A stretch of 64,000 nucleotides of DNA, from contig NW_014577185.1 of assembly GCF_000485595.1 (NCBI RefSeq), forward strand, positions 124,771 to 188,770. The letters are read 5' to 3'. The position numbers and the translations under genes are program-made. Positions 18,801-62,186 of this stretch are shown piece after piece. This DNA is from Priapulus caudatus. Lineage: Eukaryota; Priapulida; Priapulimorpha; Priapulimorphida; Priapulidae. Position 1 is the stretch's first letter. The number at the start of each line of letters is the position of its first letter. The notes beneath the pieces are model-generated. The model saw only the letters and a program-made list of their open reading frames with translations, was not told the DNA's origin and did no database searches.

Positions 18801-20768
18801 AATGCTAGGTCACCGCTGAAACAAAAAAGATTTTCAATCACTCCATCAGACCATGTCCCAGAAAATGTCTAAAATCTGCCCTGTGCCCCATTGACCTTTG
18901 ACCTGTGACCTCCAATTTCGGCACAGTGATGGCTTTTCCTACCATGATGCTATACACAAACTATCACGAGCCTAGGTCGAGCCGTTTAATTTCCTCCCTA
19001 TACCTTAAGTTAAGGAGGGAATGTTCCCCCTTCTTTTACACCTCTTGACCTTTGACCTTTAACCCCCAGCTTCGACGTCCCAACTCGTTTTCGGATTACC
19101 CCCCCACGTCCCGAATATCGTGACCGTACGTCGAGCGGTTAAGATTTATGCCCAACTGTTGACGCACGGACGCGGACGGCCGGACGGACGAACGGACGGA
19201 CGGACGCACGGACGCACGGACGCACGGACAATCATGCGATTCTACAAGCTGCATCTGACTACGTCAGATGAGCTAATAACACATCGAGTAACTCCAGTTT
19301 AGTATATAATTCAGGTTGTCAACCTAGAAACACGATAATTCACTATTACTTTTGAAACTAGTTAATTATCGAATAACATTGACCCTTACTATTCGCAGGG
19401 TCCCTCTTCATATTTAGTGCCTCATAAACATCTCCATTTTCTTCTTTTTCATCTTTGTCCTTCTTCATCAATATGTCCTTTCGCACTTCTGCTGTAGAGG
19501 TTGGCATCTGTGTCAAGTCAGATAGAGGCTCAGTCTGTTGGTCATCTTCCATCTTGTTTTCTGGTGCCCCATCCTGCAATGCATCTTCTCCCTGCTACAC
19601 ATGATGACCAAGATTAGCCGATTTTGAAAACAAACCCCGAAGCAAATAGGAAGAGTGAAAACGCAAGGGTGGGACAAAAGATAGTTAGTGTCAAATGCCA
19701 TGTGGGATGGTCCTGCATAGGTACCCCACATGCATAACTGCTTCCTGGATTCATACAGATGCTGGGAAGAGTTTTCTACAGTTACATATACATAGAGACA
19801 CACCTCTATACCTACTGACAGCTAAACACTTCTTGCATTAAAGAGACAGACTGGCTGAGTGTCACAGGGGTAAACAATGTATTCGTTCTGTCAGATGAGC
19901 TAAAATATCATTTTCTTTCTCACAGTGTGAAATGATAAGTAGTAGCAACAAGATGCACGAACTTGATCTAGCTCTTCATCGTTGCTCTCTATATTTTCCT
20001 CCAGGTTATCAAGTTGTCTCAGAAGCTTGTTCAGAGCATTGGCAAGTTTAGTAAGTGCCACGTCATTCTCAGCATCTCCATCCAGCGTCTCTTCATCTGA
20101 TGTATCAGCCCATTCTTCTGACTGAAATACAAAAAGGAGAAACAAACTAAACGTGTAAACACGTTTCAACCAGGCAAGGGTTCACTCCATTCTCCTTTTG
20201 TCATACAAGAGGGAAATTGCTAGAGTGCTGAAGGTGTAACTTACAACTGAAGTTTTACTCCTCTTGCATTTGTATATAAAACATAATATAATATAGCAAC
20301 CATTCTTACTTCCTGGTACATTCTCTACCTTTCGCAGTCTAGGAACACTTTTAATATTAAATTTATTATTATTGAATCTAATGTTGTTTTTGCAAGAAAC
20401 ATTCAAAATCATAGCAAACAGCATTTGGTACAGATCTTATAATGTACTACCTGCTCAGCATCATCATCATCATCATCATCATCTTGTTCCTGGGATGTAG
20501 ATGTCAGCACAGTCTCCAGCTGCTGTCTGACCTCACTGACCTTCTGTGCACTAAGGTCATCTCCCAATACTGTATTCAATTCTAGAAATATTTTGCACCT
20601 TTATGAGTTTTTAGAATGAAATTATAGTACAATAAGCAATTGAACTTTGCGTGGTCAATTTAGTCTCATTGACAATTACCTGTTTTACATAGCATGATAT
20701 GAAGGCCTGGGAAATAATATATCAAGAGCTAACATTACCCAAGTATTATTAGCTCTTGAATATATTAT

Positions 20769-20845
<77 letters not shown>

Positions 20846-23800
20846 CATACGTGTGTGCGTGTGTGTGCGAATGTGCCTGTGCATGTGCGTATTATGCATA
20901 TGTGAGACACAAGGCATTTACTTGCATGTATTTGTCATGCTTATTGGTAGAAACATTATTATAACTAACTGTCTTATGCACACCTTCAAAATCCATAATA
21001 CACACAATATATTCATTAATGACACAAAATTGATTTCCTTCAATAACTTCTTGCAGCAGAAGGCACCAAACACACAAAAAACGTGATATATTAGAGCTTG
21101 TACAAATTATACAGCTCGGATAGTTTCTTCAGGATTAGGCAGACTTTACCTTTCTCATATTCTTCCATGAGTTCTTTCTCGAGCTGTTCAGTCAATTTCT
21201 CCTCATAGTCATCATATTCTTCATCACTGATGCAAAATCACAATCTTAATTTCAAGAGTTACATACACTAAATAAATATCCAAAATTAGTACATCTTCCA
21301 AAACTCTCTGATCTGGCAACTACCATCATCTGGCAATAACAATGAAGAATGTTAGGATAGTACCTGCTTTTAATAAATTGTTCACATGCCTATTTTTATG
21401 TGTTGCCTAAAAGGTTTACAATTATACTAATACAGCAAAATTTAACCTCATAATAATCTTGAGTTATACTTAAGTAAGATTTGGTTAGGTTAGGTAGAGT
21501 TCCTAGGCATGACCTTTAATAAACCATATTTTCTGTAATCTAACATGAGTCATCTACGGAGGGTGCTGGGCTGGAGAAGTAAACTCTAGTATCAAGCAGT
21601 ATTCCCTCATTGATCAATATTAAAACTACCATCGATGCTATAAATTATACTGTCCATCAAACAGCATTATGTGAACGCAAGTACCTTTCTGATTCTTCCA
21701 GTAATTTAAGTGTTTCGTCTTGAAAGCTCTTATAATGTTTGATGACCATTTGGCTTTGAGCTTCTTTTGCAACTTCCTTCATGTACCTGTCCAACTCTTC
21801 CTCTGAGTTTATAACTTTCATCTGAACAGACACACCATCTGCTTCTTCGTCCTCCTCCTCTACCCTCTCTGCCCCCACTGCATCCTGCTCACTGCTCTGC
21901 TCAACCTTATTCTCACCATCCTCTTGTCTCCCATCACTCTCCCTCACGAGGTTATCTCCACTTATCACAGCGTCTGATTTAGCTTCTGGAGAACAAAGAC
22001 AACTTCTTAGTGACATTAACATCTCACATCACCCAAAAATGTTTAAAAAAATACAAAATTAATTTGTACATAGTGTCAGCTCTTGCAATGCTAGTTACAC
22101 CTGATGCTGCCATTGTATTTACAAAATTAAGCAAAATGTTCCATATGTGTGGGTAGCACAAATGAAAGCTGTCAAACTGATAACTAGGCAACAAATAACA
22201 TAAGTTATTTGTTGCCTAGTTATCGGTTGATTATTGGATATCCAAATACAGTCTCACAACAGCACATCTAAGATTTTGCCTCTGTTACCTGCACTTTCAG
22301 TCTTTGTACCCTTCAAATGTGCCAAAACCTCTGCCTTCTTAGCTGCCAGTTCCTCTTTTACACGCTCAGCTTCTGCCAATGAAACAAACATCTCATATCC
22401 CAACAATAGGTTCACCAAATGAATCTGTATTTTCAGAGAACTATATAAAACCTTATTTATTTTCATGGTAATTGTGTTTCTTCTGCCGTATTATAATGAT
22501 CATTGATTATTGATTCATTGTAATTATTATAGGATACTCTCAAGGTTTTAGGCAAAATTTTACCGATTTTTAATTTTCGACTTTATTTGGTGGCTAACAC
22601 TATGTGCCACCTCTGTATATGCTCATTTCTCCATATAACGGTACATGTGAACTTTTAGAGCATTTTGATTGCCCGCGTACACGTGTAGTGAGCAGCAGCT
22701 GATGTCACTGATGACGTCAGAGACATGATACAACCAGAATTTTCATGATATTCACTAAGCCAGTATGATTCAGCATCAACCCTCCTACAGCTATCATCTG
22801 CCAGTGATAGTTGAAATTGCCGCGCGACCGAAAATAGCCCCGTTTCACTTGTTACACGCCTTGCATTTAGGCGCGTGTTTGTTGACACATAGCTTAGTAA
22901 TGGCATGCAGTACACATCGTATGCGCGTTTTGCATGAAAGTGTGATGGTAACCTCGTAATTTCTCACAATTTCTCAAAGTGCATGGAACATATTACCAAT
23001 TTAGTGGTGTCAGTTAGTCATGGATATGTCGCAGTAAGTACTAACAGTAGATATTTCCCACACGTTCACCCATTTTGCACACAGGCGGTCAATCATTGTA
23101 AAAAATAGAAAAACGCTGATTTCTCCGTTTCGATTTCTGACATAGTAGCCGATGTATAAATGGATATTTCTCTGTGATTACAACTTGGATTAATTAAATT
23201 TTACACTCGTTTTAATGGTAACATATTGCTGTAAAAAAGTGCGTCAGGGATTGTTATTAAGTGCCGTATTTTATTAGTTATGCCTCTTTATTCGCTAAAA
23301 TTTTCAATTCTAACACACAACTTGATTTTTAAGCAATTTTTCTCGGTAAATATAAAACTTAAAAAAAAAATCCTGACGCACTATTTTGGTCCATATTGTG
23401 CTTAACATGTGGCAAAAATATTTTGTATCCTCACTCTTTCTGGTAGTTGAGAAATATCCAAAATACCATTTTTACATAAAAATTCAAATTATTAGGTTTG
23501 AGCATAGAGATATATCTCCTCTATAAATAAAACAAGTGATTGATTCAATTTCGATTAATTCGCCAATAAACGTTTAATCTTCATTAGAGCAATACCCGTG
23601 CAAAAAGGTGGAGAGTATGCTTAATAGAATATTGGTCATTGACCATTGATCATTGATTAATGACTATATTGATGAATAAAATAATACGTCCTACACATAA
23701 TAAATTGACATTAGAGAAACATGTCACATACCTTCTTCTACTTTCAGATAGCGATCATACTGTTGCTGTGACAATGCAGGGCTACAGACAATCGGGTGGG

Positions 23801-25815: not shown

Positions 25816-28189
25816 CTGGAAACACAAAAACACCTGTTTAAGAACAAAGGCTATCCATAAGAAGATCAATTAAGTCTGATAAATATATATATCATTATAA
25901 AATATAATCTGTAACTAAATACATAACACACAAAATTCAATATTCATGCACAAAACATTTCCAAGTAATAAATACAAATTAAATGAGAATTAATCTATTC
26001 AACGCTATCAGGAGTGTATCAATATTGATACACTCCTGACGCTATGCATGCACGTGTATACCTTGTGCAATACATGCATTTATATTATGACACACAATGA
26101 ATTTCATTAGTGTGTGATACAACACCTATAGATTGACTCCCTATATGAGATATACATAATGGCAAATACAAAACGTTCACAATCTAGGTAGGAACCAGTT
26201 TGGATACTGACTACTGCTACTACCAGGTAATATGCATATATTAGATCTATTATTTATATGATTAAGTTACAACTTACAGCTTTACAGTTATAACTTAATG
26301 GCTTTTGTTTGCATTAAAATAAAAATCATGGAGTAGGCAGGCTTTCTACGCTGTTCTCTTGGCATCAACAACTAATGTACATGCATTTGAGGAAGTTCAC
26401 ATTTATCAGCAGTGTTTGCCACTGAGCAGAAAAAGCTGTAGGCCTGCAGGGCCTATAGCTTCTAAAAGCTGCAGGCCCGCCAGCAAAGCTGTAGGCCCGC
26501 CAATTTTGGAGCAAATTACAGTAATAAAACAGCATATCATGTTCTTCCTTATGTTTATTAGTCATTATCAATGTCCATAATCATAATCCCTCTGTTTTTC
26601 CTTCCTCTCGTCGGATGACTGTTTATGCTTCGTTGCTGGGGGCTCACAATTAAGGAAACGCCACATCGTTGTTATATGTAGCTCCTTGGTAACTACGACT
26701 TTCCACTTTGACAGCAGAGAGACAGACTGGTAGTCTGGTACACATCGGGGACTTCTATGGGGGTCTGGGGGCCAGAACATTTTTTTAAATTATAAGCTCT
26801 GAGATGCAATCTAGAGCCATTTCATGGTACTCCAATAGCTTACAACTAGCAACACTTTTTGGTGGAAAAAGAAAAAATTATGTAAAATTTACCTACTGTA
26901 AAATTTTGATGGGCACTGGAGAATTCCGTCAGTGTTGAGTGTGTCCAAAGTAAATGTATTTTGTAGACATACAAGCTCTTACGTAAGGAAGCTTTTATTT
27001 AGCTACACCCTGTATAAATGTATATAGTTTTTCCAAACGTTAAAAACAATATGACACGGTTAAACCTGAGTGGTGCGACGAGGCTGTACTGCTGTTTGCA
27101 TGACTAGTAAGTAATACGACGTGCTTTGCAGCTACAGTGACTTAATTATGACATGTGTGTTAAAACATGAGACAATTATTATTATTTACTGTATAATTCA
27201 ACATGATATATTATCTAAATCTTCTTAATATTATTTTAAAACAGTATACTGATCGTTTGTAATAACTACCAGTGATACTTTATTGTTTACATCCAAACGT
27301 GAAATGCGCGGGGATGTGAGAATTACTCCACAACCTAGCGCACGTGAACAGTGAGCGTGCTGCACGACCCGTGCACGTAAATAAACCCTGGCCAACACAA
27401 TGTAGGGTTCACTACCACTGGCCAAAAGTAAGCTCCACCCACTTATCGATTTTTGGTATGCCAACGCTGCTACTGGATGCAGGAACCTGTGCTAACCTGT
27501 GCGTCCGAACATCCCACGCACGTTTCTTGAATGCCAACTAAAGTTGATTGCAGTGGGCGAACACATTGTATACATGTATGTCACGGTTTATCACGGATTA
27601 GTTTTCAAATAAATACCCCAGGAAGTTAATATGCATGAACAGATTTCTACAGGTAACAGTTTCTCAGTGTTTCGAATTTTCGGTGATCAAATAGCTGTAG
27701 GATCAGCGGGCCTGTTGTATCAAGAAGCTGTAGGCCCGGCATCGAAACTGTCGGCGGCGGGCCGACGGGCCGACGGGCCGACGTGAATTTCGAACACTGT
27801 TTATCAGTTAGCTTCAAAAACAAGGTCCAACTCCCACAATGAGAAATTCACTGAACTTGAAGTATTTATTGAATTTATTTGAACATATGATATAGTATTA
27901 GTAGTATTACTAATACTATAAGTATAATAATGTTCGTTCTTGTACAGTTAAACTTACCATTATTGTCAGTAATCACTGACTTGGGGACTGAATCTAACTG
28001 CGACTAAGCCCTAGCTTTAGACTAACAAGTAGTAAAGTACACCCTGGTCTTAGACTGCTTACTAGCCTAGGCAGCAGGCTACTGCCACTGGCGCAGATGG
28101 GGTCGTTGTCGTATCAGGTACTACAGATATGTACCCGAGGTAGTTTTAGGTTGTTTAGTATTATGTTTATATTTTTAAATGAGATATGT
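25816..28189. other. Region 5' of the first visible OS9 exon; repeats, no exon recognised
   Basis: The OS9 signal-peptide exon should lie to the right of 25815 on the minus strand, but no segment encoding it was identified. Two degenerate relatives rich in GCTGTAGGCCCGCC lie at 26430-26510 and 27690-27800. The second ends in a GGGCCGACGGGCCGAC tandem. Reading frames at 26568-26780 and 27231-27464 show no protein signature. Confidence 0.45.
26009..26038. mobile_element. Ultra-short perfect palindrome (copy c, 30 bp)
   Basis: CAGGAGTGTATCAAT is followed immediately by its exact reverse complement with no spacer. ACGCTAT is repeated on both sides (26002-26008, 26039-26045). Confidence 0.85.
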
Positions 28190-28244
28190 TTAGGGTTAGG
28201 GTTAGGGTTAGGGTTAGGGTTAGGGTTAGTGTTAGGGTTAGGGT
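28190..28244 (+). repeat. Interstitial telomeric repeat (TTAGGG)n
   Basis: About nine TTAGGG units, one of them TTAGTG, lie 75 bases before the foldback element. TTAGGG is the ancestral animal telomere unit. It is embedded in ordinary sequence, so this is not a chromosome end. Confidence 0.95.
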
Positions 28245-28320
28245 ACACTTCTGTAGTACAAGTCTGGTACACTTTGTGTATACATATATGTACCTAAGGT
28301 ACATATCTGTAGTACTAGTA

Positions 28321-29883
28321 GTAGTAGGCGGTGCAAATCCACTTTAGGCACCTTAGGTATCACGAAGTGATGCACAGATTTCTGTGTATCATCAACTGAT
28401 GCACAGATTTCTGTGTATCATCAACTGATGCACAGACTTTCCGTATATCAAGGAATGATGCAAAAACCCTAACCCTAGACCGAATAATTCTGTCCCATAT
28501 AACCTGTTTTATATTTTGGTGAGGGTTATATTGGGACAGAACGGGGTTCATTGAAATTTCGTGAGATCGCATGCAAAATGCATGCGCTGCTAATGCGGCC
28601 CGTACGCCGCTATTGGCGCGAAAAAAACCCTGCCGTTCCCTTCTACATGGCTTTACCTTGCTACTGATATGTGTATACATTCACTGGAATCGTTATTTAC
28701 TTCTTAAAAGATTGTTTTTCAGAAACCCCGCTTCATTAACTTTAGTAAATTACGTTGGCCATTTACAAACAATCAGACCAATCACGGTAGCAAGTAAAAG
28801 CACGTAGAAGGGAACGGCCCGGCGGGCTCATATGTCTTTTTTTCGCGGCGCGCATTTAGCAGCGCAATGCATTTGCTAAGATACAATAATGTAACCCAAA
28901 GAAACGCCAAGAGGATAGCGTTACAAAGCCTCCCTATGCCTTTTGTGGGAGGCGACATGCCCGCAAGCTGAATCACTCGGGCGCCGCGTTTGCTGCGGTG
29001 GCGTTTCAGAGACAGAAACTTCCAAACTGCGCGTTGTATCTAAGACACGAATGCTTTCTGCCGCCGATTCGGAGACGTTACTATGTATCGCAATACTCTG
29101 TATTATAACTAATATTAACCTGTTAACAAAAATTCGAAGTGACAGAGCGCGGCGAATATCCTGAGCGCCATTCTGTTGACCCTGTGACGTATGTCAATTT
29201 CCCAAATGCGCATAGGGTGATTGCGCAAGCCCAAGCGCTGCGCCTCCGAGTTGGTCGGTGAAGCCGCTTTCAAACCGAAGCTACGTCACAGCTGCACAAG
29301 AAATGGCGGCTCAGGAAATTCCGCGCTCGTCACTTTCGAATTTTGGTAACAGGTATATTAGGTTTAATACAGAGTATTTGCGCGCATACATAGTAAGTTC
29401 CCGAATCGGGAGCAAAGTATCGTCGTGTAGAATAAACCCAGTTTGACAGTTCTAGTCTCTGCAAAACGCACCAGCAAACCGGCCGCGAGCTGATTCACTT
29501 CGGGCATTCCTTGCCGCAGAAAACTGACTAGCCGAGACTTTGTAACCGCTATTCTCTGGGTTTGCGCGGTACATTCATTGTATCTAGGCTATTTTTGCAT
29601 GCGATCTCACGGAATTCAATGAACCCGTTCTGTCCCTATATATAACCCTAACCAAAATTATAAAAAAGGTTATATGGACATAATTATTCGGTCTACCCTA
29701 ACCCTAAGTCATAAAGTATAACCTTACTTAGTCTAGGTATCACGAAGTGTGTTAGGGTTAGGGGTTTTGCATCATTCCTTGATATACGGAAAGTCTGTGC
29801 ATCAGTTGATGATACACAGAAATCTGTGCATCACTTCGTGATAACTAAGGTGCCTAAAGTGGATTTGCGCCGTAGTGGGCTAC
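28321..29883. mobile_element. 1.56-kb foldback element, copy 1
   Basis: The outer 250-300 bases at each side are inverted copies: GCAAATCCACTTTAGGCACC at the left and GGTGCCTAAAGTGGATTTGC at the right. TGATGCACAGATTTCTGTG is present in both. The interior also folds (29065-29190 against 29267-29400), and a nested inverted pair lies near 28600-28860. Subterminal CCCTAACCCTA and TTAGGGTTAG blocks resemble telomere units. Open frames inside have no recognisable transposase, so it is non-autonomous. Confidence 0.82.
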
Positions 29884-30635: not shown

Positions 30636-30660
30636 NNNNNNNNNNNNNNNNNNNNNNNNN
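30636..30660. other. Assembly gap (25 N)
   Basis: Twenty-five Ns, the same length as the other gap, so probably a fixed-size placeholder. It is bordered by (GTAT)n on the left and a second foldback copy on the right. Confidence 0.99.
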
Positions 30661-31966
30661 AGCGCAGTCCTATACAATAGCCCCTGGTTCTCGCTTGTAT
30701 CTGTGGCCCGCTGCAGCGACGGCCTTGATAGACTCGCTGTCAGATTCGGTCCGGATGTTTCGTAAAATGCAACAACGTAATTTACCTATAAGTTAAATGA
30801 AGCGCCGGTTTCTGAAAAAAACAATCTTTTAGATCAAGTACAATAACGGATTTCCAGTGAATGTATACACATATCATAGCCCAAGCGTAAAAGCAGTAGA
30901 AGCGGAATGGCGGGCTCATACTGTCTTTTTTTCGCCGGCGCGCATTAGCAGCGCATGCATTTGCTAAGATACAATCAATGTAACCAAACCAAACGCCAAG
31001 CAGGATAGCGTTACAAAAGCCTCCTATGCCTTTTGTGCGGAGGACATGCCCGAAGTGAATCACTCGGGCGCCGGTTTGCTGCGGTGCGTTTCAGAGCACC
31101 AGAAACTTCCAAACTGCGCGGTTGTATATCTAAACAGCGAACTGGCTTTCTCCGCGATTCGGAGACAGTTACTATGTATGCGCAATACTCTGGTATTATA
31201 ACTAATATTAACCTGTTACAAAAATTCGAAGCTGACGAGCGCGGCGAATATCCTGAGCGGCGCATTTCTGTTGACAGCTGGTGACGTATGCAATTTCCGC
31301 AAATGCGCATAGGGGATTGGCAGCCAAGCCTGCGCCTCCGATTGGTCGGTGAACCGCTTTCAAACCGAAGTAACCGTCACAGGTCACAGAAATTGGCGGC
31401 TCAGGAATTCGCCGCTCGTCCTTCGAATTTTCGGTACAGGTTATATTGGTTTAATACAGAGTATTTTGGCCCGCGATACATAGTAAGTTCCGAATCGGGA
31501 GAAAGTTCGTTTGTAGAATAAACCCAGTTTGACAGTTCAGTAGTCTCTGCAAACGCACGCAGCCCAAACCGAGCCGCGAGTGATTCACTTCGGGCATTCC
31601 TCCGCCAGAAAACTGATACGCCCGCAGACTTTGTAACCGCTATTCCTCTGGGTTTGGGTATCATTATTGTATCTAGGCTATTTTGCATGCGATCTCACGG
31701 AATTCAATGAACCCGTTCTGTCCCTATATAAACCCTAACCAAAATATAAAAAAAGGTTATAGGACATAATTATCGGTCTACCCTAACCCTAAGTCATAAA
31801 GTTAAACCTTACTTAGTCTAGGTATCCGACGAAGTGTGTTAGGGTTAGGGTTTTGCATCATTTTTGATATACGGAAAGTCTGTGCATCATGATGATACAC
31901 AGAAATCTGTGCATCACTTCGTGATAACTAAGGTGCCTAAAGTGGATTTGCGCCGTAGTGGGCTAC
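30661..31966. mobile_element. Foldback element, copy 2 (left part lost at the gap)
   Basis: From about 30880 to 31966 it follows 28810-29883 almost base for base but with frequent one-base insertions and deletions. The part at 30770-30890 matches 28640-28760 in inverse orientation. The right terminus GGATTTGCGCCGTAGTGGGC is identical. The indel pattern looks like uncorrected long-read error rather than old divergence. Confidence 0.8.
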
Positions 31967-34437: not shown

Positions 34438-37400
34438 AGTACTAGCTAATGTGGTGAAGGCTATATTAACTATAGCTGCCCACACACAAGCATGCACGCA
34501 GTCGAACAAAGATAACATACAGGCAAATCTAATACAATGCAACATCAAATAAATTTACTATATTTTTCTACTAATCCTCCTGACTAATATGTTTTGTATG
34601 TTAGATATAAAATGGGTGATACTGGCTGGGAGTTGAGAATTTTTGACAGATTCTTGATTTCTTGATTACACCGAATTTGTGCACTTAATTTTTCTATGAA
34701 TTTTAAAGAAGAATACTGCTTCTAGGTTCATATCCTATCACCAATAAAAATTATCACGTTTTATTTGTCGCTTGTTAATCATTAGTTAAAAATAACTGTG
34801 AAATGAGTATAGAAGTGCTATTTAGAATGACCAAATGAAATGGTTTTGCACTCAGCTATTGGCATCATGGTTGATGTTGGATGTAATTTTAGGATCACAT
34901 TCTGGACATGCAGTGCGATGAACACATTGATTGGAAAATAGTACAGGTGGTGTGGTCATTTCTAGTGTTCATACTGTACAAGAGAGTTCTGCATCCCGAG
35001 CTTCTCTCCTCACATGCATGCACTGATTCAGGCATAGACCTGATTGATGTGACCTGCCGGCTAGTCACAAAGGCCAGCTGAGTTTGGCTAGTTTCACATT
35101 TTTATGCACATGGAAAATAGAGCTTTGCACATTATGCAGTCATGGGTGGAGCTTATACTGGCTTTTCTTCTGTATGGCCTTTGTTAACTAACTTATGTGA
35201 TTCCTAATCAAGATTTGGGTGGGAGTTTCTCTTTCACTGTAAAGAAGCTTGTGTATTTTGGAGCAATAATATAGGTATCTAGGACAAGAGAGAGCCAGCA
35301 GAAAGTAAGGTGGGGGTAATACGATAATATTGACAGGAGAGATAGGAGTGCACCAAAAAATATCACTACTAGTACTAGTTTTGTGTATGTATGTGTGTGA
35401 GACGGTGCGCACATATATATATGTGAGGGTGCATGAATGTGTGTCTATTTTTCATTTCGATTACAATACTTATCTGTGAAATTCTAAGGTATGTTTATTT
35501 ATCTACCACTACAAACACACTGACATGTATGAAAACAAGTAGAATCAGCTGATGAGATTCCAGTTCTACATGTATGTCGACTTATCAAGCCAGCATCCTG
35601 CTACTCACATAGATGTGTTCACAGTCGGCTATACCGCATACATAGTATACGTTCAACATGTACATCATTTGGTCGATATATATATTGCGATTTGGCCTTG
35701 ACTGGCTATAATTAGAGTCCTTGACAGTGACATACGTGTACCTGCATTGTATGTCACCGCGTATGGAGCAGTACATACATGTATCATGTATGTGTCAGAT
35801 TGCACGAGTGAATAGTATGAGTGACTATTGGGGGCAACTCGACTTTTTACAGTGCTATTGAAATTGTCACATGAACAGGACATATTGTAAATTGTATCAG
35901 AAGTGGATAAAAACACACCAAAAATTGTTTTTATTCGCGCTTGTTTGTATAGATATATAGTTGTAGGCTTGTAGCCCTGCTAGCTGATATTGACGATCAG
36001 TGATCACTATTACAGTTGTATTGAAAAATGAAGAAATTAAGTTGAGAAATATAGATATGTGTATGTGTGGGTTCGTGCTTGCCAACACGTAAGTGTTGGT
36101 GTTTACAACTTAAAAAATGAATGACCTCCGATCGGTTTTACTACTACATTGAAATCGATGAGCTATAAAGTCAAAACATAAATTGGTTTAGTGCTGTTCG
36201 TATTTTGCATTGCATTTTAGCAATTGGAAGATAAATTTGACTAACTTACTAAATAAACAGTGGAAGCAAGTGAAATAAGTCGCAGTAAAATAGCAAAATG
36301 AAGAAGCTATTGATAGTTGGTAGTAATGACAGCAATTTTTATTATGTCCACACTCACTGGTATTGATTTATCGACGCCAGCCATCCACTATCATCATATA
36401 TATTGTCGTTATTGATATAGTTCGATGTATTGTTTGCACTCCCTAGGGATTGCGATCTCTACTCCTCGTTATACACGTTTCAACCCATGTCTTGTTTTGG
36501 GACCAAAATAATTAAATTTATAATTATGGTAGTTGCAGGTCTACATTGCCAAGAGAAATAAATGTAGAAACTAGAATGTGCTTTTCTTTGGTATATTTGT
36601 CTGTTCATACATCTGTTCAGGTTTCCTGTCTGTTATTCCTACTCACTCACTCTGCCTCTCCCTCTCTCCCTCTGTCGCTCCCCCTCGCTCTCTCTCTCCC
36701 CCTCTCTAGCTCCTACTTTCTCTCACCCCCTCTCTCGTTCTCCCTGTCTCACGCGCGTTTTCGTTATAGCTCCATCCTCCCCCTCGTTTCTGGATGTGCT
36801 ACTGTGGTTGAGGGAATTTTTCGTGTACTTAAAATCATAGTTGTCTGTCACCATTATTCGCACTTACACGTGCACGTACGTAGTTTTTCATCGCCGCCGT
36901 TATCATATCCCTAGCTGTTTACATTTGCGGGTGGGGTGGTTTTTTACGCTTAAATTTGCGCCGTACTGCCTATTACGCTCTGCTACAGTCGGGACAGGCT
37001 ACAGTACAAAGGCATAATTATTATTCAGACAGTCTCTTCTATCCGACTGGGACGGTTCAATGGGTTCAACACCATCACACTGAGCCAACAGCAACATTCG
37101 AATGCTTTGATATAATTTTATAAAAGTGGAACAGGTTTGCGTGCGTGCAGAGCCGGTTAATGTTATTCAAGCGTGCTGGGCCCTGCGCAGATTGTTGTCT
37201 GACTGACTTGTTTCATAACCGGGTGTCTAGTTTTTGCCCAGCACCTATTATGCAGTAAAGGTAGCACAATGAATAGTAGACCGATTATTCTGAAAGCGCG
37301 TATAAATAATCTTTAGTGCGTAGGTACTTCCACGGCAGTATCATACTCTAGCTGGTCTCATGCGTGCCATGTGTAATCTCTCTGTTATGACAGGTTAGGT

Positions 37401-46653: not shown

Positions 46654-48129
46654 TGTGTGTTTGTGTCTGTCTATGTATTTATTTTAAGTCTTGTAATTAT
46701 GTCAGAGATGCCTAAAATGCGATGAAATCTTTTCACAGCGTAAAATCGAATGCTAAATTGCTGAGCGAATAGCATAACGAATGTGCTGCCTTGCACGAGA
46801 CTGGCAGGCTTATTGATTTTCCCCGATGTTTTGCAAGAGATAAATGTGATGTCTCTCTCTGTTAAGTGATCCGAAGACTGGTCCTGTAAAATCTATAATA
46901 TAATGATTTTTCTAGGACTGATGGGTAAAGTTTCCTCGAGCAAAACTAGACGTTGTTATTGATACGTCTAAATAAGCTCTTTAATAACTGACGTTACTTA
47001 CCTTGTAATTGATAAACGTGAAGATAATAAGATTTAAGAATTAACGGGACCATAAACTATAAAAACACCCCCCTCGAGTCAGCATTAGCCCCGAGAGCTA
47101 TTCGATCCTGTTGGATCACATTAGCAGCAGCCGTGTCTATGCGCACTCTGCAAGTGTTCGAGGTGGGCACGCGTTATTAATGTCAAAGGCTCGTATCGGT
47201 GAGGCATTTGCCTTCTGTGTGCGTGATTATCTCCGGCACATTTGCTCGCATCAGCCCCACTGAATCACGAAGCCAAGTCTGCTTGCGCGGCAGATGATTT
47301 TCGTAAGTGCGCGTAGACGCTTGCATTCAGGCTGCGACCGGGCGCTTTTCAGCGAGGCCGGCCTCACGGACGACGGATTGCGTCAAAATTCACTAGGCAT
47401 TAGCTCGACACTCTTGGAAAGCGTGTGGCTAGAAATGTGCATTCATTGTTGTGAAAGCCACGCGGTAAATATCAACATGCATGCAGCAGGCAGGAGGAAC
47501 CGCGCGTGGGCGACTCGCCACAAGAGTTCCGGCGCTCGCGTGTGACTTTGCCGTTACATTGTGGGCGGATGAAATGAGCGTGGGTGGGTACGCAGTGTTG
47601 GTTGGGGGTGGGGAGTGGGTGGGGATAATTTATACTTCACCCCACAAGACATTCGTCAAGTCACTGGGGCATAGCTGGCGCCATCAGTGATGACAGAACC
47701 ACAGCCCTGATATTTTAATGCGCTCTGACCTAGATTCATCACTACAATTTTTTTAAGCGATGCAGTCCACATAGTTGTCATGGCAACTGCATACGTAGTT
47801 GAGCGTGCGTAAGATACTACCGGCTGTGCGGCAACAAGCAAGAAACGTTTGCACACCCAGTCCAGTCCACGAGTAGGATGAGAACTTGCATGAAAGCTAA
47901 CCGATAAAAAGAAGTCCCTATGGGCTGCTAGTATATCTCTCGCTGCTCAGAAATTTGGTAAAGATGTGCGTGTTTGGTCACAAAGAGTTGCGGTGTCAAA
48001 AATATTTCAAATAGTTCCTATGCATCCTGTTTTTTGTAGGATCAATATGGATCAATCTTTTGTCTTTGTTTATTCACATCACTACGGGTGGTGGAGTTTG
48101 TCAGATCATGATTAATCCTAAATCAGATC

Positions 48130-48151
48130 AAGGTTCTTTATACGCTCTTGA
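48130..48151. mobile_element. Ultra-short element, mostly one arm only (copy h, 22 bp)
   Basis: On the minus strand it reads CAAGAGCGTATAAAGAA followed by CCTTG. The first 17 bases equal the left arm of copy d1 at 57243. ATCAGAT flanks it exactly on both sides (48123-48129, 48152-48158). This appears to be a copy that lost most of its second arm. Confidence 0.72.
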
Positions 48152-48334
48152 TCAGATCCATATCTATAGATCATCCTCCATCAGATTTTCCTAATTAGTA
48201 CTTTAATATGGTGGACAATTAATAGCATGTTGTTTTGAGTTAAAAAATAGCACATTATTTGTATATGCTGTCTACTTCTTTGGTTCTTCCTTGCTCGCAC
48301 CAGCTTGTTTTAGCTCTTTGACTGTGTTTTTCTC

Positions 48335-50688: not shown

Positions 50689-50783
50689 TATATTTTAAAA
50701 TTTACATCAGTAAATTACTAAATTTGCCGTGGTTGTTGATGTACTTTGATTCCAGCGAACAATAAAAGGCCACAAATGTCAAA

Positions 50784-50808
50784 NNNNNNNNNNNNNNNNN
50801 NNNNNNNN
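50784..50808. other. Assembly gap (25 N)
   Basis: The 94 bases before the gap recur at 53678-53771 and the 1.45 kb after it recurs at 55040-56610, so both flanks exist again in the same order downstream. Confidence 0.99.
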
Positions 50809-52255
50809 GAGGGTTCAACATGGATTTGTTGACTGTTAACAAAGGATTGAACTGCTTTTGCTATTATTAGAGCCCATACCTGTGTGGATGTGAGGCTTCA
50901 TTTGCAGTTCAATTGCAAAGACAAAAGTTTGTTGAACAAGGTTTACACTTGTTCATTTATTTATTTAATCATATTATTTTCTAAAGCAGTCTGCATATTA
51001 ATAGCACCCTGAATGCTAGCGTGGCTACCGGCATCCGAAATGTAGGCAAAAACCCGGGGCAATCCTTTACTGATGCATGGGGGTGAACTGGCACTTTTCT
51101 AATAAACATGCACACCTGCAATGCAGATGTGTTTAATTTATTACTCACAGCTGATCCAAATTGTCACCTGCCTGAATGTACTTGGATTTTAGCCTGTACA
51201 TTTCAGCAACTCAATGGAATTAGGTTATCTTTACTTTCTTGACTGATCACCAATGCACGAAGGTCGATACCATGTTTGATTATTGATTACACTTGCACGC
51301 GCCATCTCGCGGCAACTATGGGCCTAGTGATATATTATGACACGAATATATATAAGACAGTCGAGCAGGTATGAAGTAGGATACATTGTTAGGGTTTAGT
51401 TTTAGTGTTAATACCTATGCTACACAGTTTTGATGATGACGTAGCCGGTTTAGCGATAGAACAGGCTTTCAACCTTTTGCAGAAACGAAAGCCAGTACAG
51501 TAGAGCAGCAGATGAGCCCTGTCGCTGTTGCGGCACTAGTTCAATTAGAGAATGATCGTTTTAACGTGTACATTTTACACTCGGTGTGCCGGTTGCTACT
51601 AATTTTAATGCTGGGGTTGTTGGTGTGTTTATATACGAATCGGCCATGCTCGGATATTTAGTTACTCTAGTTCGAAGTTGGGCGGCCGAATGTTATTGTA
51701 GTGGTTTAATTAGAACGCCGGTCGCTACTGTGTACTGTCTGGAGTTTGACATGTGTCCGATCTCAGACAGATACCCACGTTGCCGGCTCCTTTGAGGTTT
51801 GATGTTATCGCTTTTTTCGGTATCAGTTATCGAAAATCCTTGTTATTCTAGGTAGGTTTTTAGCTCACCTTGACATCGTCAAGCTGAGCTATTGCCATGG
51901 GTCGTCGTCCGTCGTACGTCCGTCTGTCCGTCAACATTTGGTTTCGGTCAATGATAACTCAGGAACCGTTTGACCCACATGTTTGAAATTGGGTATAGTT
52001 GTTACTGCTATGCTCCCGGAATATGGAACGTCCTATTTTGGAGCACGCCAGTCGACGTACTTTCGAGCCACGGCAATTTTTTGGCCGGGGAATTGGGAAT
52101 GGGAATTGTCATTAGTCAGTTCAGGTTCAACGGATTTTGCTCATTTTTGGTATGTGAGTGAAGAAGGGCTAGGGGTTTTGATTTAAAAAAAAATTATGCT
52201 AATTAGGTAGGGTTTGGCAATTATATAGCATATATATATAGACACGCAGATATAC
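50809..52255. repeat. First copy of a 1.45-kb duplicated block
   Basis: It aligns with 55040-56610 throughout, differing mainly by single-base indels. It includes the TTTTTAGCTCACCTTGACAT repeat head at 51858. No coding sequence is recognised. Confidence 0.88.
51858..52200 (+). repeat. Dispersed repeat beginning TTTTTAGCTCACCT
   Basis: The head forms a small hairpin (GCTCACCTTGAC, GTCAAGCTGAGC) and is followed by CGTCCGTCTGTCCGTCAACA, GTTTGACCCACATG and a long tail ending in poly-A. Such AGCTCACCT...CGTCCGTC repeats are common in marine invertebrate genomes. A second copy starts at 56188. Confidence 0.7.
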
Positions 52256-53583: not shown

Positions 53584-54458
53584 GATTTTTAAATTTTTGT
53601 TGAGACGTTCCAACTTCCAAGGGCCGGTGAGTGCGTGCGTGCTTGTGTACGCGTGCGTACATGCGTACGTGCACGATATATTTTAAAATTTACATCAGTA
53701 AATTACTAAATTTGCCGTGGTTGTTGATGTACTTTGATTCCAGCGAACAATAAAAGGCCACAAATGTCAAACACTTGTTTTCACAATAAATGTGCATTTT
53801 ACATGTAAACTCTATAAAAAAAATGGTGGTGCGCCGAGACAAACAGATGCCGCAGCCCGCCGCAACCTTTTTCCTGTTTTTTCGCACCGCGAAAAAAACG
53901 GCGATGGATCATTATCTCCCTTTCTTGGATTTTCCCAACAAGGGACTTCTGCTACAAACCGTTTTCATATTTTATCGACCGTTCTGAAACTTCTGATACT
54001 TACCGGTAGTCCGGTACTCCTTGCATAACATCACGTGTGTCTATAGTAAGGCTAACATGTCATAGAACAGTCGCACATAATTGTGTTCACCAACTTGTGC
54101 ACCAATCTGCATTTCAAATTATATTTATTTACATAACTATTCAACAAAACTAACGCGTGATGTTTGCTTCTGCGAGATTGACCAGAACCTTGTTTCGACA
54201 CTAGGTTAATTTCCGTTGTATACATTTCGAGATAGGTACCAATCTATAAATATTTTCGTCACGTAACTACATGCACTTTTTCGTGAAAGTCCTTGAAGAT
54301 TGTCGCGAATATCAAGATAGCAGGCGCACGTTTGCTGTTCATTTATTGTTTTATAGCCTATAACAGCAGAAACTCGTAATAATTTTTATGCTGAACTAAT
54401 CAGTAATATGCACGATGACTCGATGAGAGGTGTAAATTTGTCTAAATTGATTAATTTT

Positions 54459-55078: not shown

Positions 55079-56610
55079 AGGATTGAAACTTGCTTTTGCT
55101 ATTTATTAGAGCCCATACCTGCTGTGGATGTGAGGCTTCATTTGCAGTTCAATGCAAAGACAAAGTTTGTTGACAAGCAGGTTTACACTTGCTTCATTTA
55201 TTTATTTAAATCATATTATTTTCTAAAGCAGTCTGCCATATTAATACACCCTGAATGCTAGGCGTGGCTACCGGCCATCCGAAATGTAGGGCAAAAAACC
55301 CGGCGGCAATCCTTTAACTGATGCCATGGGGGTGAACTGGCAACTTTTCTAATAAAAACATGCCACACTGCAATTCAGATGTGTTTTAATTATATTACTC
55401 ACAGCTGATTCCAAATTGTACACCGCCTGAATATATACTTGGCATTTTTAGCCTGCTACATTTTCAGCGCAACTCAATGAATTTAGGTTATCTTTACTTT
55501 CTGGACTAGATCAACCAATGCAACGAAGGTCGATACCATGTTTGATTATTGATTGACACTTGCACGCCGCCATCTCGCCGGCCAAACTAATGGGCCTAGT
55601 GATTATATTATGACACGAATCATATATAGCACAGTCGAGCAGGTATGCCAAGTTTTTATTTTTTGTTGGATGCATTGTTAGCGGTTAGTTTAGTGTTAAT
55701 ACCTATGCCTAACACAGTTTCTGATTGATGACCGTAGGCCGGTTTCAGGCGATATGAACAGGCTTTCAACGCTTTTGCAGAAACGAAAAACCACTAACAG
55801 TGAGCAGCGTATGAGCCCTGTCGGCTGTTGGCGGCACTAGTTCATTAAGAGAATGATGTTTTAACGTGTACATTTTACACTGCGACTAACGTGTGGCGGT
55901 TGCCTACTAATTTTAATGGCTGGCCGGTTGTGGTGTGGTTCGTGTGTTATATTACGAATCGGCCATGCTCGCATATTTAGTTACTGCTAGTTCGAAGTTG
56001 GGCGCCGAATTGTTATTGTAGTAGCGTTGTAATTAAACGCGCGGTCGCACTGTGTACTGTTCTGAGTTTGACATCTGCGGCCGATCGTCAGACAGATGAC
56101 CCCACGTTGCCGCGCTCCCTTTGATGTTTGATGTTATCGCTTTTTTCGGTATCAGTTATCGAAAATCCGGCTGGTTATTCTAGGTAGGTTTTTAGCTCAC
56201 CTTTGACATCGTCAGCTGAGGACTATTGCCATGGGTCGTCGTCCAGTCGTACGTCCGTCTGTCGTCAACATTTGGTTTCGGTCAATGGATGAACTACAGG
56301 AACGCGTTTGACCCACATGTTTGAAATTGGGTATAGTTGCTTAGCTGCTATTGCTCCCGCGAATATGTGGAAACGTCCTATTTTGGAGCACGGCCAGTCG
56401 ACGTACTTTCGAGCCACAGGCAATTTTATTGGGCCGGGGAATTGGGAATGGGAATTGTCATTAGTCAGTTCAGGTTCAACCGGATTTTGCTCATTTTGGT
56501 AGTGAGTGAAGAAGAAGGCTACGGGGTTTTGCATCTTAAAAAAAAAATTATTGCTAATTAGGTACGGGTTTGGCAATTATATAGGCTATATATATATAGA
56601 CACGCAGATA
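55040..56610. repeat. Second copy of the duplicated block
   Basis: It matches 50809-52255 but is about 8 percent longer through scattered single-base insertions, a pattern typical of uncorrected long reads. It contains another TTTTTAGCTCACCT repeat from 56188. Confidence 0.88.
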
Positions 56611-56893: not shown

Positions 56894-56932
56894 CAAGAGT
56901 ACATAATGGGAGTTCTCCCATATATACTCTTC
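56894..56932. mobile_element. Ultra-short palindromic element (copy g, degenerate, 39 bp)
   Basis: CAAGAGTACATAATGGGAG is followed by TT and CTCCCATATATACTCTTC, which pairs with a few mismatches. The flanks (ATAATTAT and ATTTCTAT) are only weakly alike. Its arm fits the family consensus CARGRGnnnATAA. Confidence 0.55.
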
Positions 56933-57242
56933 ATTTCTATAATGTACGTTGATGGTTGCTCAATTAAAACTGACTTCTTCTCACTCACTCATTTGTGTCC
57001 TTTTTGGTGGTGAGCTAAAGTGTCATTGACACTTTCATTTTGCACCTGTAATCAGTTGTGTAGCTGCAAGTTATTCGTAAGCGGTTGGGTTTTGTGACTG
57101 CTGTGCATGTTGAACCTGTGAACCATCAGCTGTGTATACGTCAGGGGAGGTCAACCATATATGCACGCTCGCATACATAAAAGTGTTTTTTAACCCGATT
57201 GCCAGATTTTCACACCAAAAGATGTGTAACCTCACATGATAT

Positions 57243-57280
57243 CAAGAGCGTATAAAGAAGGGCTTCTTTATACTCTCTTG
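57243..57280. mobile_element. Ultra-short palindromic element (copy d1, 38 bp)
   Basis: CAAGAGCGTATAAAGAAG, two bases, then CTTCTTTATACTCTCTTG: one mismatch in 18 pairs. ATGATAT flanks both sides exactly (57236-57242, 57281-57287). The next family member begins directly after the right flank. Confidence 0.85.
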
Positions 57281-57287
57281 ATGATAT

Positions 57288-57326
57288 CAGGAGTTAATAA
57301 AGACAATTTGTCTTTATTAACTCCTG
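57288..57326. mobile_element. Ultra-short palindromic element (copy d2, 39 bp)
   Basis: CAGGAGTTAATAAAGACAA, one base, then its exact reverse complement. The left flank ATGATAT and right flank GTGATAT differ by one base. It shares its left flank with copy d1. Confidence 0.85.
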
Positions 57327-57485
57327 GTGATATGTGCGAGCCTCACATTTGAACAGCGATATCCCATCACCGACCGCGTCGTCGTGTTCACTGAAATTCC
57401 ATGCCCGTTGTCAACTCCGAAATCCGCACTCAAATCCGAACTGGAAATAAAAAAGACGAGTTAAAAGTGTTGGTGTTTGTTGCAG

Positions 57486-58524: not shown

Positions 58525-58616
58525 ATACTATACATGCCACATACCATCGCTGGGGATTGTCCACCCCCACGTGACTAGATAGCGAATAACGATATGCATC
58601 CGTCGATTCATTCTAT

Positions 58617-58662
58617 CAGGGGTTAATAATGACATTATTACATATGACATTATTAACCCCTG
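58617..58662. mobile_element. Ultra-short palindromic element (copy e, 46 bp)
   Basis: CAGGGGTTAATAATG and CATTATTAACCCCTG are exact complements around a 16-base centre. ATTCTAT flanks both sides exactly (58610-58616, 58663-58669). Confidence 0.85.
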
Positions 58663-60400
58663 ATTCTATCAAGGAAGACGTCGCGTTCTTATTCCAGTTG
58701 TAGTTACGTTGAATTTCGTGACATGGACAGGAAATTTGCCAAGGGGTATTCATAGCGTGTCTTTATGTGTGCACAATAGCCAGCGCAAGTTACCACACAC
58801 GTACCGCGGTTGGATGTCAGTGCAGGGAACGTAGGGCCACAAGGCCCACAACCCTCGCAAATATCACAACTCGGCAATAGCTAGCCTTCCTGCTGTTTAT
58901 GCCAGGATTTTGTAACCTATTGCCGCGGGTGTTTGATGTATTAATTATGGGATTTCGCCACAGTGTAGATTCGCGAGTTAAATGGTACCCGACGGACGAA
59001 TAGTGGATTAAGGGTGGGTGTCTCAACAAGCAAAGTGAGACAGGGAAATCCAGTCGAAAATGCGGAATAAAGAAACGACAGCGAGAGAGAAGGGGAGAGA
59101 ACGAGAGACGAGAGAGGGGGAAGGGAGTGTGGTAGTTAACGATAGGAGCGAGAAAAGAGAGGAAGAGACAGATACAGACAGAGACAGAGATAGATATAGA
59201 TACATACAAACAGGCAGACAGTCACGCACGCACCCGCACGCACATACAAGCAGACAGGCACGCACGAACACACGCACCCGCACGCACAGACAGACAGACA
59301 GGCACAGGGAGGGGTGCGGGAACAGTACCTAAATGTAATTGTTTAAAATTGACGATTCACGTGACTAGCCTTGTCCACAAGTCAGTCGTCATGCTACGTG
59401 TATGCTGTATAATAGGGCAGTTTCACAAACGATTTCACTCGTGCCTGGAAACAAGTAGGCATGCTGGAAACTGCCTCTGAAAGAGTGCATTTTAAAGCCG
59501 AGCTCGGTATTAAGTTTACCGAAATAAAATGTTCAAGGGCTTTTTTACTAACTCAAACAGACATAAAATGCGCCTACTCAACAAACCGGTATTTCTGCAG
59601 TCTAGCAGCTTACTCGTGACGTGTTCCGCATACACCTGCAGTACTGTGGAATATTCGAGGCAAATCTGGGTTCTGGCAAATGCAATCAGTTCCCTATAAT
59701 GTCGCACGGTTGGCCGGTAAATCGGTAAATTGGCGAGACAGGTGAAAAAACACACCTTCGATATAAGCTGTAAATTTGCGTTTCCCTAAAATGCGTTCGC
59801 GCCAAAAAGAGTGCGGCGTCAGTCTGCAGGTTATCATCGAAGTGATAGATGTGGTTTAGGAGGTGCCGCCTGCATGAAATAAACAGTACTGCCGTGTCGG
59901 TCGCACTAGTGGCAAAGGGGTGCAGCCCGATCGGGTGTGGCATGCGGCCTTGAAGGGTTATAAGCTCGTAGGTTCCAGTTCCCATTTTACTGATACGGAT
60001 TGGAGTCAGTATAAACGGGGGTGTGCAGGCGGTGAGCATATCACTGTCTCGGTAGTGCATGGTGGTCGTTATTTTTGTTCGTGGTGGTCATGTAATGATG
60101 TTGTCCAGTGTGGGTGCTTATAGTTTGTCACTGATTTGTCGTCTCGTCATGGTTATCAAATAAGGGTGGCTGTAGTTACCAGTGAGTGGTGGCCATGGTT
60201 ACCATAATTTGTAGTCATGGTTACCAGCATCCGTGTCATAATGGCGGTCACAATGTGATGCTGGTGGTCGTGGTTACCAAAGGGTTGTGTCATGTTTGCT
60301 AGCATAATATGTAGTCATGGATACCCGTATCTGTGGGCGTGGGTTACTATAGCATCTATGGTCGTGATGGTTTGCAGTTACCGGTGCTGGTGGCTATATA

Positions 60401-61269: not shown

Positions 61270-61567
61270 CCGATGATATTAAACAGTGCAGTGTCGTAAA
61301 AAAAAGTTCAGGTACATGCTATGCTCGTTCAGGATTAGGTATACAGGCAACGTGAAACGTTCGGAACATATGTGCAGAACGTGCGTGAGTGCAGAATGTG
61401 TGTACTTACGGATATGTGTGGGTGCAGAACGTGCGAGGGCACAGCAGGTGAGTCGGTACAGAACGTGCCAGGGTACAGTACATTGGTGAGTACATAACGT
61501 TCGAAGGCACAGTACGTGCTTGGGTACCGTACTTGCGTACATGTATCAGCAGCAGTACACGTGTTAG

Positions 61568-61607
61568 CAAGAGTAGATAATAACACATGTGTTATTATCT
61601 ACTCTTG
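61568..61607. mobile_element. Ultra-short perfect palindrome (copy f, 40 bp)
   Basis: CAAGAGTAGATAATAACACA is followed directly by its exact reverse complement. The flanks GTGTTAG and GTGTTGG match in 6 of 7 positions. Confidence 0.85.
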
Positions 61608-62186
61608 GTGTTGGGGAAAGAAACAAAAGCGTGTTTGAAGCTATTAGATTTTGGCCTCGAGAGAGTTCAATGAAATTACGTCGGACAAGACTGTTATACC
61701 GTATATAGCGGCTTGTATGACGCTCCGTTAATTATATTAGACACACCTCAAATTTAAGAGGTAATAGAATCAGAAGACATAGTAGGCTCACCATAAATAA
61801 GACGGCACGCTTATTTTTTCCATGTTTTACTTTTTCATATATTTCATGAGTAATCAATAGTATATAATGTGGACTATTCTTATGAGGTGTATAATATGGT
61901 GTAGCAGAAAATCCAAGGTGTAATAATGTTCGCTAAACGTCGTTGCGCATCCAATAGGCCGCGAAATACTGTAGTATTGATTACTTATTACTTACACGTT
62001 ACATTATTTCATTCAATTCACATGAAAATCGTGTACTAATAATTACTTCCGTTTTAGGACTGTTTAGTGTTAGGTACTGTGTGTGATAATAGCCAACGCC
62101 TATGGTTGGCCATCGTACTCAGAAATAATTATTTTTACCGCGGTAAGTACCAGCGAATTAGTAATTCTTCGTAGATATAAAACAAT

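Follow-up and report, generated by a model that had tools for sequence, protein, structure and literature searches.

Architecture and inventory of the copies

The DNA analysed here, referred to as the window, is a 64,000-nucleotide stretch of nuclear DNA from the priapulid worm Priapulus caudatus. Nine short copies of one family of insertions lie in it, and the layout per copy is best described as a target duplication, an inverted repeat of about 17 nt, a unique centre, a second inverted repeat of about 17 nt and a target duplication:

Copy 1, 20723..20758, unstranded: 36 bp, 17-nt arm, CA and 17-nt arm; exact 7-bp repeats AATATAT at 20716-20722 and 20759-20765.
Copy 2, 26009..26038, unstranded: 30 bp, perfect palindrome; exact 7-bp repeats ACGCTAT at 26002-26008 and 26039-26045.
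Copy 3, 35898..35943, unstranded: 46 bp (17 + 12 + 17), found with an arm profile; repeats ATTGTAT/TTTGTAT (6/7) at 35891-35897 and 35944-35950.
Copy 4, 48129..48150, unstranded: 22 bp, one-armed, CAAG, G and 17-nt arm; exact 7-bp repeats ATCAGAT at 48122-48128 and 48151-48157.
Copy 5, 56894..56932, unstranded: about 39 bp and decayed, with C replacing the final G and a 1-bp indel in the right arm; TAATTAT on the left side, no recognisable repeat on the right.
Copy 6, 57243..57280, unstranded: 38 bp (17 + GGGC + 17); exact 7-bp repeats ATGATAT at 57236-57242 and 57281-57287.
Copy 7, 57288..57326, unstranded: 39 bp (17 + AATTT + 17); right repeat GTGATAT (6/7) at 57327-57333.
Copy 8, 58617..58662, unstranded: 46 bp (17 + 12 + 17); exact 7-bp repeats ATTCTAT at 58610-58616 and 58663-58669.
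Copy 9, 61568..61607, unstranded: 40 bp, perfect palindrome (17 + ACATGT + 17); repeats GTGTTAG/GTGTTGG (6/7) at 61561-61567 and 61608-61614.

Copies 6 and 7 stand in tandem, with the 7-mer at 57281-57287 common to both. Copy 1 is intronic in a minus-strand gene, flanked by exon pieces that appear OS-9-like when read by eye; three exon pieces scanned against Pfam had no match. Over the nine copies, the flanking repeats are exact in five, match at 6/7 in three and are unrecognisable in one (56894). The repeats of 48129 can alternatively be read as 8 bp, ATCAGATC. Leaving out 48129 and 56894, seven copies are two-armed, with lengths of 30, 36, 38, 39, 40, 46 and 46 bp, i.e., 34 bp minus 4 to plus 12.

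A preliminary description of this DNA had listed eight palindromes with CARGRG and CYCYTG ends, and its observations are partly confirmed and largely right. Both the ends and the palindromy hold for six of the eight (20723, 26009, 57243, 57288, 58617 and 61568), but 48129, placed there at 48130, starts with CAAGGT and has one arm complete and about four bases of the second, and 56894 ends with CTCTTC and has decayed; the copy at 35898 had been overlooked. Its count of five exact 7-bp repeats (20723, 26009, 57243, 58617, 48129) and two matching at 6/7 (57288, 61568) is correct, and its view that direct repeats of fixed length mark insertion by a transposase-type enzyme at these sites stands.

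Controls against chance and symmetry of the arms

When CARGRG and CYCYTG ends, a length of 20-60 and pairing at 75% or more of the outer 15 positions are required, six palindromes are present in the window, and all six carry a 7-bp repeat, exact in four and matching at 6/7 in two. In 100 order-1 and 100 order-3 Markov simulations neither such a palindrome nor one with the repeat was found. In an open-ended scan, the ends were left unspecified, outer arms had to match at 9/10 or better and a low-complexity filter was applied; its filters exclude five copies, and four of the nine are visible to it. At a repeat length of 7 (at least 6/7), the scan returned five matches, namely 26009, 57243, 57288, 61568 and one outside the family at 28398, within a 29-bp tandem array. 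There were no matches at exact length 6, three at length 5 and one at length 9, those at lengths 5 and 9 being family copies in shifted register except for the same array match. Twelve simulations scanned in this way gave two length-7 matches altogether.

Palindromes arising by chance, or common inverted repeats whose flanks happen to agree, might be suspected, as the window holds further palindromes that lack flanking repeats, e.g., 22179-22224 and 34381-34427. The six observed cases against none in 200 simulations contradict this explanation, which we reject as having a negligible probability. A degenerate form of the pattern was matched outside this genome, in searches that may leave out records of the window's own genome, in five GTDB contigs and in two viral contigs of identical sequence; the six distinct matches share at most 3/7 flank bases and are taken as chance because flanking repeats are absent; these counts, too, speak against coincidental flanks in the window. 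The copies are no known RNA by Rfam at gathering scores, and ARAGORN (bacterial code) gave no tRNA.

Across the first 15 positions of the seven two-armed copies, the two arms of the same element match at 97 of 105 positions, whereas re-pairing the arms among the copies gives 74 on average, and among 5,040 permutations the value of 97 is reached by the true pairing alone. The claim that stems vary between copies while each remains self-complementary is thereby borne out. Perfect outer arms of at least 15 are found in four copies. Pairing within copies (seven of nine examined) is kept to position 18, with 5-7 of 6-7 copies paired at each position, and falls to 3/5, 1/3 and 0/2 beyond it. The part of either inverted repeat that is kept measures about 17 nt, although 16-19 nt fits about equally and is inseparable from this value because pairing extends slightly past 17.

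The outer 17 nt or so is the most that the copies have in common, and the centre never is. The 17-nt arm of 48129 recurs unchanged as the left arm of 57243, and the two copies part at position 18 and have different centres. No two of the nine centres are alike, each being unique to its copy as expected of microhomology or filler; the common internal sequence expected of a micro-hairpin or MITE is missing. In 58617, one of eight copies tested, a 12-nt direct repeat, ATGACATTATTA, runs across arm and centre and resembles templated insertions of Pol theta end joining. MITEs likewise have inverted repeats, target duplications and no coding capacity. However, MITE copies have internal sequence in common, whereas the present copies have none and are far shorter.

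Excision and end joining as a probable source of the copies

We consider it probable that the palindromes are excision footprints left by a DNA transposon that was P-superfamily-like, duplicated 7 bp of its target and had TIRs starting CARGRGYNNATAAWR. A parental transposon would insert with duplication of 7 bp, and a P-type transposase would later excise it by a long staggered cut, one strand being cleaved about 17 nt within the element, so that each flank keeps a 3' tail that corresponds to the first 17 nt or so of the repeat. The tails would then be united by end joining, whether through short microhomology, bluntly or with filler; as they are the two matching ends of one element, the resulting scar would be a palindrome of roughly 2 x 17 nt whose centre is unique. 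Copy 2 (26009) is consistent with two 17-nt tails overlapping by ATAT, and the one-armed 48129 would fit end joining with one trimmed tail. Symmetry would arise for free, because both arms derive from the matching TIRs of one parental transposon; we propose that arms differ between scars and match within one because several subfamilies were active.

This is in agreement with P excision in the fly, where the transposase leaves 17-nt 3' tails that are fused via microhomology or filler. The products in Table 1 of PMC2895639 consist of target duplication, CATGATGAAATAACATA-type tail, microhomology or insert, reverse tail and target duplication, with up to 17 nt per repeat, and include templated inserts and one-armed products. 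Of the 66 isolates that we counted in the table, 33 have duplications separated by 30-44 bp, and 32 reach 28 bp or more and have perfect outer arms of at least 10 bp. Fly products in which both long arms are kept measure 30-44 bp, against 30-46 bp for the seven two-armed copies here. The preliminary description knew of no family that fits and does not bring up excision; these footprints, a described product, fit closely as tabulated. Among the literature matches listed, no title or abstract opening concerned short palindromic elements with 7-bp duplications or P-type footprints in Priapulus. The fly products differ in their 8-bp duplication and repeat sequence and are experimental, whereas those in Priapulus have 7 bp and are natural, with nine scars in a 64-kb window picked for them and no parent found there. 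That the table in PMC2895639 comes from Rad51-deficient flies, with end joining as the sole route, counts against the footprint reading.

With strict ends, no pair from 61 bp to 20 kb is present in the 64-kb window. Profile-end pairs with repeats of at least 6/7 number 1, 13 and 46 at 61-500, 501-5000 and 5001-25000 bp, near the shifted-control values of 1.1, 10.4 and 37.7, which are means only; the single pair at 61-500 bp is the 57243/57288 tandem. An autonomous element or bigger MITE carrying these ends was accordingly rejected for the window, and no parental or internally deleted element was seen in it beside the nine copies. Cleavage would set the retained length, and therefore no length continuum is predicted, as observed. 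The lack of a parent within 64 kb nevertheless speaks against footprints, because gap repair should often restore elements.

The nine short copies without longer relatives in 64 kb, the five exact 7-bp repeats, the perfect outer arms of at least 15 in four copies and the abutting pair 57243/57288 would also suit a mobile micro-element, i.e., a 30-46 bp palindrome moved by a transposase acting in trans, possibly in the form of an extruded hairpin whose base holds the two ends, its symmetry being selected or restored by template switching. Such an element is unlikely, as there is no common centre, 57243 and 48129 diverge directly after an identical 17-nt arm, and the centres vary in a manner resembling repair junctions, one of them containing a repeat that looks templated; furthermore, the excision reaction described in PMC2895639 yields the same product, as its Table 1 illustrates. 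The earlier interpretation is thus partly supported: insertion is retained, and the hairpin as mobile unit, with selected or rebuilt symmetry, is disfavoured since the two TIRs of one parent already match. The copies have the look of excision scars more than of a novel mobile hairpin.

Target duplication, candidate superfamily and implications

The duplication of 7 bp falls within the 7 or 8 bp of the P superfamily. In the site counts of PMC3276498, the modal duplication is 7 for 1360, a P superfamily member (274/279 sites), and 8 for the P element, and the hAT element hobo duplicates 8 bp (1,196/1,198 sites); the P superfamily element Galileo is given 7 bp in PMC4168063. The 8-bp duplication expected of hAT is not seen, with no matches at length 8 (at least 7/8) in the open-ended scan, which sees four of nine copies, and only 48129 readable as 8 bp.

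The target motif is ATNNTAT on one strand, and the target strand direction is identical at every informative site. The outer bases are symmetric (A at position 1 in 7/9, T at position 7 in 8/9), but the motif is one-sided, with T at position 5 in 8/9 and A at position 3 in 1/9; this counts against P footprints, because fly TIR and LTR elements have palindromic target motifs according to PMC3276498. Galileo and 1360, which have the 7-bp duplication in common with the present copies, have the palindromic motifs GTANTAC and GTTNAAC, and the repeats reported for Galileo, 0.5-1.2 kb, are far longer than the arms here. Zebrafish Pdre2, another P superfamily member, starts with CA as do the present copies and is excised by the THAP9 transposase (PMC10983969), but has 13-bp repeats and an 8-bp duplication as opposed to arms of about 17 nt and 7 bp. 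A Pdre2-type scar cannot be a 17-nt palindrome, since its inverted repeats are only 13 bp, and THAP9 excision in zebrafish is described in the same source as giving larger flanking deletions than the fly enzyme; clean 17-nt scars of P-like elements are therefore documented for flies only, which weighs against the footprint reading.

Scored against the arm profile, fly P reaches 1.9 and Pdre2 -10.6 (13 columns), and the hAT elements Tol2, Ac and hobo reach 4.9, 1.1 and -7.9. Judged by these scores, the end sequence does not appear to single out P over hAT and may partly point elsewhere. The hAT ends of Tol2 and Ac have a CAGRG-like start, as in the present copies; we know of no hAT excision that retains about 17 nt of each end.

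The copies might alternatively derive from a non-P TIR transposon, hAT-like or unclassified and with a 7-bp duplication, as extreme internal-deletion derivatives or excision scars produced through aborted gap repair or another staggered cut. The ends are closer to Tol2 than to fly P, and aborted gap repair yields TIR-junction-TIR products with intact repeats and unique centres. It predicts broad lengths, however, whereas all nine copies have lengths of 22-46 bp and longer pairs stay close to the shifted-control means; these lengths, the 8-bp duplication of hobo and the lack of known hAT scars with about 17 nt per end make this origin rather improbable.

If the copies are P-type excision scars, the Priapulus genome is a natural archive of excision and end-joining events from a phylum distant from the usual laboratory animals, in which one scar equals one double-strand-break repair junction, and microhomology use and templated insertion become measurable. 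The long staggered cut of the fly P transposase would then be suggested for P-like elements with a 7-bp duplication in another phylum, and annotators would be warned that short palindromes with flanking repeats may be scars, not mobile elements.

The question is also raised why scars outnumber parents here. Nine P-like excisions at a gene-bearing locus, none seen left and a single target strand direction could be read as directed or programmed excision by P-type chemistry with near-complete clearance, taking place either evolutionarily in the germ line or somatically in every individual, which we regard as very unlikely. Such excision would parallel the internal eliminated sequences of ciliates, with P-type chemistry at work in a priapulid instead.

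Structure and reality of the palindromes

Nine short palindromic copies, eight of them with recognisable 7-bp flanking repeats and one (48129) one-armed, are named here by their start in the window; they are built from outer arms of about 17 nt around a variable centre.

Composition of the nine copies
20723: 17 nt, CA, 17 nt
26009: 30 bp, fitting two 17-nt tails with an ATAT overlap
35898: 17 nt, twelve-base centre, 17 nt
48129: CAAG, G, full 17-nt arm
56894: about 39 bp, right arm damaged
57243: 17 nt, GGGC, 17 nt
57288: 17 nt, AATTT, 17 nt
58617: 17 nt, twelve-base centre, 17 nt
61568: 17 nt, ACATGT, 17 nt

The preliminary description listed eight palindromes of the form CARGRG...CYCYTG, six of which satisfy that definition; the element placed at 48130 in fact begins at 48129, has a single full arm within its 22 bp and is bordered by exact ATCAGAT repeats, and the right end of 56894 is decayed. 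An arm-profile search of the window added a ninth copy (35898-35943, 46 bp, repeats ATTGTAT/TTTGTAT). Palindromes with these ends were absent from simulated windows (100 order-1 and 100 order-3 Markov), whereas the real window has six, each with repeats matching at 6 of 7 positions or better. In a free-end scan, whose filters exclude five of the nine copies, matches peak at flanking-repeat length 7, with five (at least 6/7), four of them from the family and the other, 28398, inside a 29-bp tandem array; twelve simulations gave two matches in total at this length. Exact length 6 and length 8 (at least 7/8) gave none, and lengths 5 and 9 gave three and one, all of them shifted views of family copies except for 28398 again.

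As had been described, the arms are symmetric within copies. Across the seven two-armed copies (all but 48129 and 56894), the first 15 positions match within the copy at 97/105, versus a mean of 74 with re-paired arms, and among 5,040 pairings the true one alone attains 97/105. Pairing holds in 5-7 of 6-7 copies up to position 18, then falls to 3/5, 1/3 and 0/2 at positions 19-21. In the arm consensus of these seven copies, CARGRGYNNATAAWR, no variation occurs at positions 1, 2, 6 and 10, and hardly any at 4, 11 and 13. Copies 57243 and 48129 have CAAGAGCGTATAAAGAA in common, exactly 17 nt, and diverge immediately after it. All centres are distinct; in 58617 a 12-nt direct repeat runs across arm and centre, and no internal direct repeat of at least 6 nt occurs in the other seven copies tested.

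Excision scars as the probable source

We know of no transposase product other than the 17-nt tail that leaves so much of an element behind. Cutting by Drosophila P transposase is reported to leave such a 3' tail on each donor end (PMC2895639; PMC5466332; PMC10983969). Germ-line end-joining products from Rad51-deficient flies (PMC2895639, Table 1) have a target duplication at either side and, between the two, up to 17 nt of each inverted repeat joined through microhomology or an insert. We counted 33 of the 66 isolates listed there as holding 30-44 bp between the duplications; a length of 28 bp or more combined with perfect outer arms of at least 10 bp is seen in 32 of the 66. The other 33 measure 25-27 bp (n = 5), 20 bp (n = 1), 16-17 bp (n = 4) or only 5-8 bp (n = 20), or reach past the duplication (n = 3). 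The seven two-armed Priapulus copies span 30-46 bp, compared with 30-44 bp for the long-arm fly products; scars of 5-8 bp would go unrecognised in the window.

We consider it probable, if well short of certain, that the copies are excision scars made by the P-type footprint mechanism, in which two inverted-repeat tails are end-joined. Both arms of each scar would come from one parental transposon with already matching ends, and parents from distinct subfamilies would make arms differ from scar to scar; this would account for the feature that puzzled the preliminary description, stems that are unlike among copies but self-complementary in every one. In the same view, the two-copy array at 57236-57333 represents two insertions at one 7-mer, and tandem P insertions reportedly occur in flies (singed-weak). 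The palindromes are a real feature, and scars are the more likely reading than the new mobile hairpin proposed originally, in which the palindrome itself moves and which we regard as unlikely. The excision chemistry of the proposed scars is already known; new, so far as the open-access literature search shows, are the host phylum, a 7-bp P-like family, natural clustering and the missing parents.

The target motif, however, counts against scars. On the + strand at 20716-61614, the nine left 7-mers read ATNNTAT or NNNNTAT-like in one direction over 41 kb (T5 8/9, A6 9/9, T7 8/9, A3 1/9; 57243 and 57288 share a site). This motif is one-sided, whereas palindromic motifs are described for the TIR and LTR elements of flies (PMC3276498), and a symmetric transposase with unoriented insertions should give both directions.

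The putative parental transposon

The 7-bp duplication resembles those reported for the P-superfamily elements 1360 (274/279 natural insertions; PMC3276498) and Galileo (PMC4168063; PMC2775673), in contrast to the 8 bp of the hAT element hobo (1,196/1,198; PMC3276498). Scars or internal-deletion derivatives of a non-P TIR transposon, for example hAT-like, are an alternative to which we give little credence. P-superfamily inverted repeats, Galileo excepted, are given as 30-50 bp (PMC3688188), which exceeds the ~17 nt kept in the copies, as scars require. Zebrafish Pdre2 departs from this expectation with repeats of only 13 bp, and excision in S2 cells by zebrafish THAP9, a P-like transposase from a phylum other than that of flies, removed more flanking DNA than excision by the fly enzyme, while human-cell assays gave many rearrangements (PMC10983969), so that scars outside flies need not be clean. 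The Pdre2 repeat length and score and the THAP9 products weigh against the excision-scar reading.

Arm-profile scores were 1.9 for the fly P end (595 of 125,848 window 15-mers as high) and -10.6 over 13 columns for Pdre2; the other ends compared scored 4.9 (Tol2; 156/125,848), 1.1 (Ac; 804/125,848), -7.9 (hobo) and -16.3 (piggyBac). Judged by these scores, end sequence does not decide the superfamily, and "P-type footprint" therefore names a mechanism only.

The 64-kb window contains no parental element, and a strict-end search found nothing in it between 61 bp and 20 kb. Profile-end pairs whose 7-bp repeats match at 6 or more positions numbered 1, 13 and 46 at 61-500, 501-5000 and 5001-25000 bp, versus shifted-control means, given without spread, of 1.1, 10.4 and 37.7; the single pair in the shortest range is the 57243/57288 tandem. 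Sister-templated repair, reportedly favoured at first in flies (PMC2895639), would be expected to regenerate the elements, at least in part, which makes nine scars to zero elements lopsided. An ordinary explanation is that selection purges whole insertions near genes; directed excision is the bold one. Nine per 64 kb is no genome-wide density, since the window was chosen for its copies.

Genomic setting and other repeats

An STT3B-like oligosaccharyltransferase is encoded on the + strand at 2.8-11.5 kb; its exons, joined by eye, match database protein P0001 at a rounded 100% identity, with at least two residues differing on inspection. Exons on the - strand at about 16-26 kb, also read by eye, encode an OS-9-like protein, best matching 'protein OS-9-like isoform X2 [Priapulus caudatus]' (89% over 83% of the rough join). 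From these gene matches, the window is nuclear DNA of Priapulus caudatus (phylum Priapulida). Two gaps are marked (25 N each; 30636-30660 and 50784-50808), so a repeat could be concealed by no more than these two.

An exact 95-nt repeat occupies 50689-50783 and 53677-53771; its first copy stops where the gap at 50784 starts, which suggests an assembly break at the repeat. Diverged repeats lie at 50964-52152 and 55206-56501 (spacing 4.2-4.35 kb), and duplicated segments at 29593-29883 and 31681-31966, ~2.09 kb apart, share an identical 77-nt stretch. A ~1.22-kb segment (28476-29695) has perfect 14-bp inverted ends, TAGACCGAATAATT, with CCCTAACCC flanking it on both sides, and lies near a short TTAGGG array (28190-28244). 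A repeat containing GTCTATGTCCCCCAGGGTAC has related copies at 4155-4208 and 34364-34417 (78%) and a more distant third at 28086-28139 (61%); the copy at 34364 sits within a hairpin (34381-34427) without flanking duplication. Another hairpin, 22179-22224, in the OS-9-like gene region, has perfect 21-bp arms (GATAACTAGGCAACAAATAAC) without a flanking direct repeat. A 49-bp palindrome at 14775-14823, CATGAACA...TGTTCATG, flanked by ATTACAT/ATTAAAT (6/7), may be the scar of a different P-like family, because its ends begin CATGA, as in the fly P element.
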